NCBI RefSeq assembly: GCF_900177665.1
Contig: NZ_FXAW01000004.1
Location: 124,001 to 188,000, forward strand
DNA from: Marivirga sericea
GTDB taxonomy: Bacteria > Bacteroidota > Bacteroidia > Cytophagales > Cyclobacteriaceae
Direction of reading: 5' to 3'
DNA: 64,000 nucleotides
Part shown: positions 24,453-27,568 of the stretch, piece after piece
Position numbering within the stretch: position 1 is the first letter of the stretch
Layout of the letters: each line of letters starts with the position of its first letter
The notes under the pieces: model-generated
Told to the model about the DNA's origin: nothing
The model's database searches: none
Seen by the model: only the letters and a program-made list of their open reading frames with translations
Made by a program: the position numbers and the translations under genes

Positions 24453-25364
24453 TTGTTCAACCTACTAAAAACCCACTTTAAGGATTACCTTAACTTTCTA
24501 AAAGAACCAAATCCAAATCCGAATCATAAAAAATCTCAACTTAATAAAAAATGGCAAACCCTGTTCATTTTTATTATAATCGATTTTTTGATGATTCTTC
24601 CTGCTATTTTACTAATACAGCTAATCCAAGAAATCACTGCTATAGATTTAGATGATCATGCCCTTGCAGACCTAAGCAATCAATTTGGGATTATGGGTCT
24701 AATTCTTTTGGGAGGAATAGTAGGTCCACTTATTGAAGAAATCATTTTTCGCCTTCCCCTAAACTACAAAAGAAACTATCTATTCAAGTTGGTAGGTGTT
24801 GTAGTAGGAAAAGAGTCCGTAAAGAGATTTTGGTTTAAGAATTATTCATTATTTTTTTACCTTTTTATTATTGCTTTTGCCTTAGTCCATATAACCAACT
24901 ATAAAAACGAATCACTCAGCATTCTTCTGTTATCCCCCATTTTAGTTTTGCCTCAAATTATCGGAGGAACAGTCCTAGCCTATTTAAGAATGAAAATTGG
25001 CTTCTTCTGGGGCTTTTTGCACCATGCTATCTTTAATTCAATCTTAATGATATTAGCATTATTTATCAATTTAGAAGAAAAAGTGATGATCGATAATGAA
25101 CATTATAGATTGAAAATAGAAGTGGCTGAGAACCGGTTTGGCAACCAAAAAGTAGTTGACATTAATAGAGACTTCGACTTTATCTCTGAAATCGAAATAG
25201 AATATGCTCAATTCAATCAAATAGCTAAACAAATGGACTGGGACACGGTAAGCCAAAAGCAGAACCGTAAATTCTTCAATATTGAATTCAATATAAAAAA
25301 TTTACAGATTAACAGTGACTCTGTTTTAAAATACCATCTGAAAGAAATAATTGAAGATCAATAA
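24453..25364 (+). CDS. CPBP (CAAX-like) family intramembrane metalloprotease, TTG start
   Basis: A 303-residue membrane protein with several hydrophobic segments and the three motifs of the CPBP/Abi family: EEIIFR (Glu95-Arg100), FALVH (His146) and HHAIFN (His190/191-Asn195). CPBP members cleave membrane-embedded or prenylated substrates, or act in peptide maturation and immunity; the target here is unknown. About 80 soluble C-terminal residues are unusual extra sequence. The start is TTG; no ATG precedes the first membrane segment in frame. The 3' end overlaps the end of the dnaX tau frame on the other strand by seven bases. Confidence 0.83.
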   Translation: MFNLLKTHFKDYLNFLKEPNPNPNHKKSQLNKKWQTLFIFIIIDFLMILPAILLIQLIQEITAIDLDDHALADLSNQFGIMGLILLGGIVGPLIEEIIFRLPLNYKRNYLFKLVGVVVGKESVKRFWFKNYSLFFYLFIIAFALVHITNYKNESLSILLLSPILVLPQIIGGTVLAYLRMKIGFFWGFLHHAIFNSILMILALFINLEEKVMIDNEHYRLKIEVAENRFGNQKVVDINRDFDFISEIEIEYAQFNQIAKQMDWDTVSQKQNRKFFNIEFNIKNLQINSDSVLKYHLKEIIEDQ

Positions 25365-27051
25365 TCAGTATCGAGTCCAAAAGTATCTCTTAACTTTCCC
25401 AACAAAGGATTTTCTTTCAACATGGCCTCAAACTTTTCTTTAGGAGTATAAGGTCTTTCTGCAGCCTTTTCAATATTGACATGGTGCTGCAATTGAATTC
25501 CCTTATTTTGAAATCTCTTCCTAATAAATCCCAATAAATCAGCTCTTATTTTTTCAATTCCATCAACCTCAACCGGATTTGTCAATTCAATAGTGATCAT
25601 CTCCCCTTCTAATTGCACAGCGCTTTTCAATGAGTTTGCAATTACAGGGCCAATATTATTCTGTTTGATGAATTCTAAAATTATCAACTTTACTTCACCT
25701 TCATTGAGTTCTTTTGAATCTTCATCGTGAATGTCCTCATCCAATTTTTGAATAGTTTCTTCAGGCGTTTCTTCTACTAAATTTTTACTATCACTGGACT
25801 TGATTTTCTCTCCAGGTTTTGGAATTGAAGGCGAAGATTTTAACGGCTTCTTTTGAGTAGCCTTCTCTGAAATCTGCTCAGCTAAAGATTTGTTTTTATT
25901 ATTGGCTGATTCTGAACTATTAATATTGCTAGAAGAGTCCTCTAGCTCACTTTTTTTTTTAAAACTGCATCTTGTTGTTTTGCTAAATCAACTGCATTAT
26001 TAATTTTTGCCAGCTTCATTAAAGCTAATTCCACTGCAAGTCGTTGGTTTTTACTACCCTTATATGATTGGTCCGTTTGATTTAAAACCTGCAAACCAGA
26101 TAGGATAAAAGAAGGAGATACTTCTTGAGCTTGTTGTTTGTACTGAGCCTTCACTTGTTCTGAAACTTCTAAAAGTTGTAAAGTAGACTCATCTTTACAA
26201 ACCAATAAATCTCTTAAATGAGCAGCAAGTCCATTTATGAAGTTATGACCATCAAAGCCTTTTTTTAGAATCTCATCGAACAGTAATAACGCTTCAGGTA
26301 TTTTTTCATGGTTTAAGGCATCTGTTACTTTAAAATAATAATCGTAATCTAAAATATGAAGATTATCTATTGTAGCTTGATAAGTGATTTTATTGTCAGT
26401 AGAAAAAGTAACGATCAAATCGAAAATGGACAGCGCATCACGTAAGGCGCCATCAGCTTTTTGAGCTATCAAATGCAGTGCAGCTTCTTCCGCTTCAATT
26501 CCTTCCCTGTCTGCAATATCTTTTAAATGGTCTGAAATATCAGAAACTTTAATTCTGTTAAAGTCATAAATTTGACATCTTGACAGAATAGTGGGTATTA
26601 CTTTATGTTTTTCTGTAGTGGCTAAAATGAAAATAGCATAAGAAGGAGGCTCCTCAAGTGTTTTCAAAAACGCATTAAAAGCTGCGTTGGAAAGCATGTG
26701 AACCTCATCAATAATGTAGACTTTGTATTTCCCGTGCTGAGGAGGTACTCTGACTTTGTCAATAAGATTACGAACGTCATCCACAGAGTTATTTGACGCT
26801 GCATCTAATTCGTAGATATTTAATGAAGAAGAGCCCTCCATATTATCTACCTCAAAATCATTGATCAGTCTAGCCAAAATTCTGGCGCAGGTGGTCTTCC
26901 CTACTCCTCTAGGCCCGCAAAACAATAATGATTGCGCTAAGTGATCATTGTCTATTGCGTTCTTTAAGGTAGTGGTGATGTGTTTTTGACCTACTACTTC
27001 ATCAAAACCTTTTGGTCTATATTTCCTTGCTGATACAACAAAATTTTCCAT
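25358..27051 (-). CDS. dnaX: DNA polymerase III subunit gamma/tau, with predicted -1 slippage
   Basis: The clamp-loader ATPase of the replisome. In the start frame (27051 to 25942) it encodes 369 residues: Walker A GPRGVGKTT (about 45-53), the CxRC-containing lid, DEVHML Walker B and the clamp-loader collar, then stops two codons after an A10 run. In the -1 frame the sequence is open without a stop from the A-run to 25358 and adds about 197 residues, including the tau-type C-terminus (EKFEAMLKENPLLGKLRDTF) typical of Bacteroidota DnaX. Together they give about 564 residues. A hairpin just after the A-run supports programmed frameshifting or transcript slippage, giving a short gamma and a long tau. 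A homopolymer sequencing error is the alternative. Confidence 0.9.
25928..25960 (-). promoter_or_regulatory. dnaX slippage site: A10 run plus downstream hairpin
   Basis: On the minus strand TTTT is followed by ten A (25960-25951), then GTGA, then an eight-pair stem GCTAGAGG/CTTCTAGC with a three-base loop (25946-25928, one G-T pair). The zero-frame TAG stop lies inside the stem. Slippery A-runs followed by a hairpin are the known layout in dnaX of E. coli; A-run transcript slippage is known in Thermus dnaX. Confidence 0.72.
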
Positions 27052-27151
27052 TAGCGCAATTTATAAATACCCTTTTGATTTTAGGATATGAAATAAGGAT
27101 AATTATACTTTTTTTTCAAGATTTTTCTGAGTTGAAATCTGTAACAGAATC

Positions 27152-27568
27152 TCAACCATAAAATTCCACGAAATTTCTAGGTGTTTCGTAGAGCGTCAAT
27201 TTATGAAGACTTGAACCCTCCTGAAGGTCCTTCACCTTTGGCTCCAATATTTTCCAAAATTCAGCAATAATTATTTCGCAACTGGCCATTTTACCTTCCA
27301 AGAAAGGGACGTCCATATTAAGGTTTTTATGATCCACCTTGTCAATGACTTCAGACTTGATTAAATTACTTAGCTTTTTTAAATCAACTACGAATCCTGT
27401 GTCAGGATCAGGCTCTCCTTTTACTGTTACAATGAGCTCAAAATTGTGACCATGCCAATTTTCATTGGCGCATGGACCAAAAACTTCTTCATTCTTCTCC
27501 CTGCTCCAGTTAGGATTAAAAAGCTTGTGCGCTGCGTTAAAATGTTCTTTACGATTAACGTAAACCAT
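27152..27568 (-). CDS. queD: 6-carboxytetrahydropterin synthase / PTPS family (QueD-like)
   Basis: A 138-residue T-fold enzyme that converts dihydroneopterin triphosphate, the second step of queuosine (preQ0) synthesis in the QueD class. The zinc histidines are in NAAHKLF and WHGHNF, the catalytic cysteine in FGPC, and DHKNLN plus the C-terminal YETPRNFVEFYG supply the remaining active-site residues. Queuosine synthesis also fits queG in the same window (47776-48705). A biopterin-type PTPS role cannot be excluded by sequence alone. It is divergent from hldD, with its own TATATTTG promoter box. Confidence 0.88.
   Translation of the reverse strand: MVYVNRKEHFNAAHKLFNPNWSREKNEEVFGPCANENWHGHNFELIVTVKGEPDPDTGFVVDLKKLSNLIKSEVIDKVDHKNLNMDVPFLEGKMASCEIIIAEFWKILEPKVKDLQEGSSLHKLTLYETPRNFVEFYG

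Follow-up and report, generated by a model that had tools for sequence, protein, structure and literature searches.

Results

The dnaX locus and its two frames

The window, by which we mean the whole 64,000-nucleotide stretch of Marivirga sericea DNA that was analysed, carries on its minus strand a dnaX gene whose two parts lie in different reading frames (Table 1). The upstream frame ends GTT TTA AAA AAA AAA GTG AGC TAG, and from the A10 run onwards the -1 frame stays open through 197 codons, as far as a TGA at 25360-25358. The original prediction had described just this, namely ten A, two more codons and a TAG in the dnaX frame, followed by a -1 frame of about 197 codons with a tau-type C-terminus, and on both points it was confirmed.

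The 369-aa part is recognised as DnaX by its profile matches in Pfam and NCBIfam (TIGR02397, 2.2e-115; PF13177, PF22608 and PF12169); the AAA+ ATPase core, the lid and domain III are all present in it, and a tau C-terminal part follows, as in a complete DnaX. When compared with PRK14971, the DnaX gamma/tau model, the upstream frame covers model positions 1-372 (650 bits) and the -1 frame positions 418-613 (63 bits, 1.8e-17). Each frame taken singly stays below the cut-off of this model, 685 bits, as parts of one protein would be expected to, and the -1 frame part has no Pfam match. These matches indicate that the upstream and -1 frames are consecutive parts of a single protein, with predicted masses of 41.4 kDa for gamma (369 aa) and 63.3 kDa for tau (564 aa); across the junction, tau would read KKKSELEDSS. 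Judged from the genus genomes, the tau-coding -1 frame is under purifying selection: dN/dS lies between 0.08 and 0.42 in the 28 of 45 pairs in which it was computable, with the caveat of saturated dS values in 17 pairs and of high ones in most of the others.

Table 1. Features of the dnaX locus, in window coordinates
Feature	Positions	Strand	Basis
dnaX upstream frame, gamma, 369 aa, ATG start at 27051	25942..27051	-	ORF reading and family matches
A10 slippage run (candidate), gamma/tau junction	25951..25960	-	Sequence; exact A10 in 10/10 genus genomes, own included
Immediate +1-frame stop TGA after the run	25947..25949	-	Sequence; +1 stop here in 10/10 genus genomes
Gamma stop TAG, upstream frame, two codons past A10	25942..25944	-	Sequence
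8-pair hairpin, 3-base loop	25928..25946	-	Present in own genome, not conserved, probably incidental
Tau-specific C-terminal part, -1 frame, 197 codons + stop	25358..25951	-	PRK14971 match, dN/dS, sequence

The A10 run is constant within the genus

The dnaX run is exactly A10 in all ten genus genomes (the window's own plus nine), and in every one of them gamma ends two codons past the run and tau lies in the -1 frame. Directly after the run all ten carry the motif GTRAGYTAR, which closes both other frames, its first part, GTRAG, providing the instant +1-frame stop. At the level of the order, A10 or A11 is found at the homologous dnaX site in 34 of 38 genomes, again counting the window's own.

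On both strands together, the genome to which the window belongs holds 16 exact A10 runs, nine of which touch no long frame, while seven, including that of dnaX, lie within or at the edge of one. As a control we took the A10 of a dsbD-like gene (this and the other names of genes with A10 runs were assigned by eye) and followed an aligned 120-nt stretch through the same ten genus genomes. The longest A run in it measures 10, 5, 9, 7, 9, 9, 5, 5, 8 and 9, the last two values being found elsewhere in the stretch, and because its length varies in this way the dsbD-like run looks unselected. The run concerned (L069/L264, C8:319426-319437) is an in-frame A10 within the DsbD-like gene and is not conserved. 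Three further loci of the same genome (L068, L078 and L083) have coding-strand T10 runs within long open frames, and that of L083 is located near the frame start, a position at which a change in its length could work as a switch.

Assemblies often miscount homopolymers, and the split of dnaX could in principle reflect a sequencing error or a pseudogene. However, the A10 and the split frames recur in 10/10 genus genomes, the -1 arrangement is found in 70 of the 142 loci compared below, and the -1 frame is under purifying selection. We therefore find this explanation hardly credible: since the run is exact in all ten genomes and the -1 frame is selected, the comparisons indicate that the split is neither a sequencing error nor a pseudogene, and the plain sequencing error against which the original prediction had argued can be set aside.

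Alternatively, A10 could be a phase-variable DNA tract, in which replication slippage would switch tau on and off. Long A runs do mutate, and near relatives that differ by a single A exist (L064 and L221, see below), but the count stays at ten in 10/10 genus genomes, in which the dsbD-like A10 varies. Moreover, dnaX is expected to be essential, and the few A9 exceptions may stem from faulty assembly. We consider phase variation very unlikely, and the constancy of the run is the ground on which both it and sequencing error were rejected.

The hairpin downstream of the run

The original prediction also saw a hairpin as part of the device. Its description is accurate: GCTAGAGG / ACT / CTTCTAGC forms eight pairs, one of them G-U, around a three-base loop, begins four bases past the A10 run and encloses the gamma stop. 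Its role in the device did not stand. Indeed, the 81 nt around it fold with -12 kcal/mol (z = -1.54), and 18 of 200 shuffles fold at least equally well, so that on its own the hairpin does not exceed what chance would produce. Of the ten aligned genus genomes, one, the window's own, has the full stem; in one relative (L012) its place is taken by a different and imperfect stem, and in two others (L009 and L010) a stem begins about 24 nt after the run. An alignment of the site in relatives, which the original prediction had suggested, thus shows a conserved run and a hairpin that is not conserved.

Some pairing signal is nevertheless seen in the genus alignment, where the stem columns are paired at 61.6% against 57.0% in shuffles (23 of 500 equally high) and three stem pairs are changed on both sides (20 of 500 shuffles as high; slid versions pair less), in a test whose stem was derived from one of the tested rows and in which 38% of the cells are unpaired. 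Among the 142 loci with a run, perfect stems of at least seven pairs starting 2-12 nt past it number six, against 11% of 786 control positions. In the region of 25200-27200, Rfam gave four matches up to E = 5, none of which reached its gathering score.

A general tendency to fold was also observed in the 142 loci: the stretch 3-53 nt past the run folds slightly more strongly than the control does, the difference being larger for fused genes than for split ones. The mean folding energy downstream of the run is -7.6 kcal/mol, versus -6.8 kcal/mol in the control, and the mean folding z is -0.34 +/- 0.13 for split genes, -0.63 +/- 0.14 for fused genes and -0.15 +/- 0.07 for the control.

The genus alignment and the perfect-stem counts in the 142 loci led us to reject the hairpin as a conserved stimulator. 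As it is not conserved, we judge that here it is probably incidental, or at most modulating; structure may contribute weakly in some lineages.

Comparison across Bacteroidota

The wider comparison was made on 165 Bacteroidota dnaX loci, 38 of them from the genus, family and order (the window's own included) and 27 and 100 more from the phylum search matches listed. The genus, family and order set comprised 39 genomes, one of which (G017) was dropped, being without a full dnaX match. The phylum search found a match in 389 of 392 genomes, and the counts given here are limited to the 165 loci examined. The homologous site is occupied by a run of A9 to A12 in 142 of these loci (A10 in 106, A9 in 24, A11 in 11 and A12 in one); in 17 there is no run of at least seven A within the searched interval, and six more have A7 or A8. 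The 23 loci without an A9 or longer run are excluded from all counts on the 142. From among the matches listed, 25 of the 165 loci lie outside the window's class, 13 having A9 at the site and 12 being without an A9 run.

Where does tau lie in the 142 loci? It continues the upstream frame, in what we call the fused arrangement, in 70; it is in the -1 frame in another 70 and in the +1 frame in two. The fused arrangement is spread over 51 genera and the -1 split over 29, and the +1 split is confined to one, g43, in which tau follows an A10 in the +1 frame in L097 and L098. These two count as one case because their proteins are identical in the tree. On a tree of the upstream part, which was built quickly and contains several long branches, the arrangement labels need at least 14 changes, and the well-supported branches force six for the fused label.

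These counts also bear on the idea that the tau C-terminus is a protein in its own right, separate from gamma and made by re-initiation after the gamma stop. The two frames are separate in the DNA, and a 128-aa ORF with a TTG start does lie inside the -1 frame. However, in the window's own genome the first start comes 69 codons into the tau frame. In the split genomes, an ATG is present within the first 20 tau-frame codons in two of 72, and any of ATG, GTG and TTG in 10 of 72. Furthermore, both parts share one frame in 70 of the 142 loci. Re-initiation, rejected for the rarity of start codons early in the tau frame of the split genomes, appears extremely unlikely to us.

The arrangement can change between near relatives. 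In genus g43, fused A10, fused A11 and +1-split A10 are all found, and in genus g52 four loci have A10 and a fused gene (L055, L061, L065 and L088), the fifth having A9 and a split one (L064, genome G297). A set of 80 named genomes, the loci of which may overlap the set of 165, has A9 to A13 at the site in 69 and no run or A7 in 11; the 69 divide into 49 fused, 18 -1 and two +1. In this set, one locus (L201) combines an A10 run with a tau in the +1 frame, and the five Flavobacterium loci comprise four with a -1-split A10 (L217, L218, L225 and L228) and one, L221 of Flavobacterium sp. YO12, with A9 and tau in the +1 frame. No run is present at the dnaX site of the five named loci whose titles read Bacteroidaceae, Bacteroides or Prevotellaceae. 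In L064 and L221, a single-A difference within one genus, A9 versus A10, shifts tau to another frame; these A9 are either real variants tolerated through slippage or homopolymer errors of the assembly.

Stops close to the run are a regular feature of these genes. Both non-tau frames stop within ten codons in 133 of the 142 loci, compared to 30% of 55,784 control positions. In the -1 split genes the +1 frame stops within six codons in 60 of 70 loci, against 50% in the control (24 of 29 genera, p = 3e-4). In the fused genes a stop within six codons is found in the -1 frame in 66 of 70 loci (control 42%) and in the +1 frame in 54 of 70 (control 33%).

The elements that accompany ribosomal frameshifting in dnaX are scattered. 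The heptamer A_AAA_AAG is in frame in 27 of the 70 -1 split loci (three genera) and in 16 of the 70 fused loci (11 genera), and is absent in this genus. A Shine-Dalgarno (SD)-like core lies 3-16 nt upstream of the run in 29 of the 142 loci; before the run of the window, where the preceding bases are acaagatgcagtttt, there is none.

Independently of the run, we observed that the insert rich in cysteines (C, C..C..C) which can follow the Walker A motif is absent from the window's DnaX (about 26819-26862 on the minus strand, alignment columns 65-85). In a motif scan of the 165 loci, 54 have this insert, 85 lack it and 26 were not scored, and the window's family holds both states.

Discussion

The comparative data support the central claim of the original prediction, and we consider it probable that one dnaX gene gives both gamma and tau through slippage of RNA polymerase on its A10. 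According to this reading, RNA polymerase would slip on the run and produce dnaX mRNAs with varying numbers of A. Transcripts with ten A (or 10 +/- 3) would be translated as far as the TAG two codons past the run, giving gamma (369 aa), and those with one A more or two fewer would be read on in the -1 frame as tau (564 aa). All others would meet the immediate TGA and yield a gamma-like protein again. Ribosomal slippage on the same A10 run may add to this. That slippage occurs, that it does so at the level of RNA polymerase, and any gamma:tau ratio, is what we infer from the comparison of sequences.

Three features of slippage-type genes are found here: an uninterrupted run of at least nine A at the gamma/tau junction that is kept in relatives, nearby stops in both non-tau frames, and more than one direction of shift among orthologues. 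The last was given by Antonov et al. 2013 as a general criterion to tell transcript slippage from ribosomal frameshifting (PMC3711429). Transcript slippage predicts stops in both non-tau frames, +1 arrangements and switches of direction. Moreover, work on E. coli and Buchnera has shown that RNA-polymerase slips in A/T runs mostly insert single bases, deletions being rarer, and that these insertions rise exponentially with the length of the run (PMC5574713). One inserted A is what the window's dnaX needs for tau, and a bias to single-base insertions is more in keeping with the -1 arrangement than with the +1 one, which is rare. A counterpoint to this reading is that A10 or T10 runs also occur within a few other long frames of the same genome.

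The main alternative is a programmed -1 ribosomal frameshift on A_AAA_AAA, perhaps aided by the hairpin 4 nt downstream, which would make tau and thus be a reversed form of the E. coli device. The A10 does allow A_AAA_AAA in this frame, the stem exists in the window's own genome, and folding downstream of the run is slightly above the control over the 142 loci. In addition, Atkins et al. 2016 attribute the reversed layout of dnaX to ribosomal frameshifting and point to a candidate in Chlorobium whose stimulators resemble those of E. coli (PMC5009743). However, the full stem is missing in nine of ten genus genomes, the window reads TTA AAA AAA AAA GTG and no in-frame A_AAA_AAG occurs in this genus, and the SD-like core, present in only 29 of the 142 loci, is not among the elements of the window's genome. 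Furthermore, a -1 ribosomal shift could not serve the +1 arrangement, and if the ribosome alone were responsible the +1 frame would be free of selection, yet +1 stops are enriched in the split genes. We regard a ribosomal shift as the unlikely reading.

The original prediction had likened the layout to both the E. coli and the Thermus systems. The -1 ribosomal frameshift of Escherichia coli dnaX takes place in the same gene, at a similar place and on an A-rich slip site (PMC5009743, PMC3711429). The window differs from it in having no in-frame A_AAA_AAG, conserved stem or SD-like core, in the reversal of the roles of the two frames, and in the conservation of the +1-frame stops as well; the downstream hairpin that recalls E. 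coli is found in the window's genome alone of its genus. On the whole, the data favour slippage of RNA polymerase, as in Thermus, over a ribosomal shift, as in E. coli.

Transcriptional slippage in dnaX of Thermus thermophilus was reportedly demonstrated by Larsen et al. 2000. The Thermus case is described by Baranov et al. 2005 (PMC1088944) and shares with the window an A run, nearby stops in both other frames and the production of gamma and tau from one gene (PMC1088944, PMC5009743). However, Thermus belongs to a different phylum, its run is of 9 A rather than 10, and its template frame encodes tau, slippage leading to gamma; in the window, gamma is in the template frame and slippage would give tau. 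Of the two comparisons drawn originally it is thus the Thermus one that is favoured, with the roles reversed as Antonov et al. proposed for other species, and the E. coli one that is not.

Two-ORF dnaX genes with ten A and a proposed slippage have indeed been known since 2013. Antonov et al. reported 17 from 12 genera, nine of which have 10 As, and proposed transcriptional slippage for them; three Chlorobi relatives have 9, 8 and 7 As (PMC3711429). As in the window, gamma is in the upstream frame and tau in the -1 frame after the A run. Unlike the present set, the available portions of that paper describe no switching between split and fused genes around a constant run, and a search among openly accessible papers showed none on repeated dnaX frame switching across Bacteroidota. 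The breadth of the phenomenon and the repeated switching of frames around a fixed run are therefore its less familiar part.

Uninterrupted dnaX genes in relatives were the observation named at the outset as one that would speak against slippage. They do occur, in 70 loci, yet these keep an A9-A11 run, and slippage there would make gamma instead. This raises the idea, to which we give about even chances, that in Bacteroidota the dnaX run is a frame-neutral hub around which lineages drift repeatedly between slipping to make tau and slipping to make gamma. Single-base gains and losses in the run or close to it would then be tolerated because, whichever template from A9 to A12 is present, slippage by RNA polymerase would supply each of the three frames, and selection would keep only the run and the stops in the two non-tau frames.

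For annotation, the consequence is that software predicting genes one frame at a time would report a truncated or frameshifted dnaX in this genome and in others of the Bacteroidota, for example in Flavobacterium, although its conservation speaks for an intact gene with two products. The natural series of runs from A9 to A13, with tau in three frames, lets one ask how much slippage is needed, and the comparative set also suits the questions of whether gamma is selected for and how mobile a coding frame becomes when slippage buffers it. The fixed run with its moving frames is the more interesting part of the pattern: if the run is indeed such a hub, the coding frame of a replication gene would be near-neutral at the DNA level across much of the phylum.
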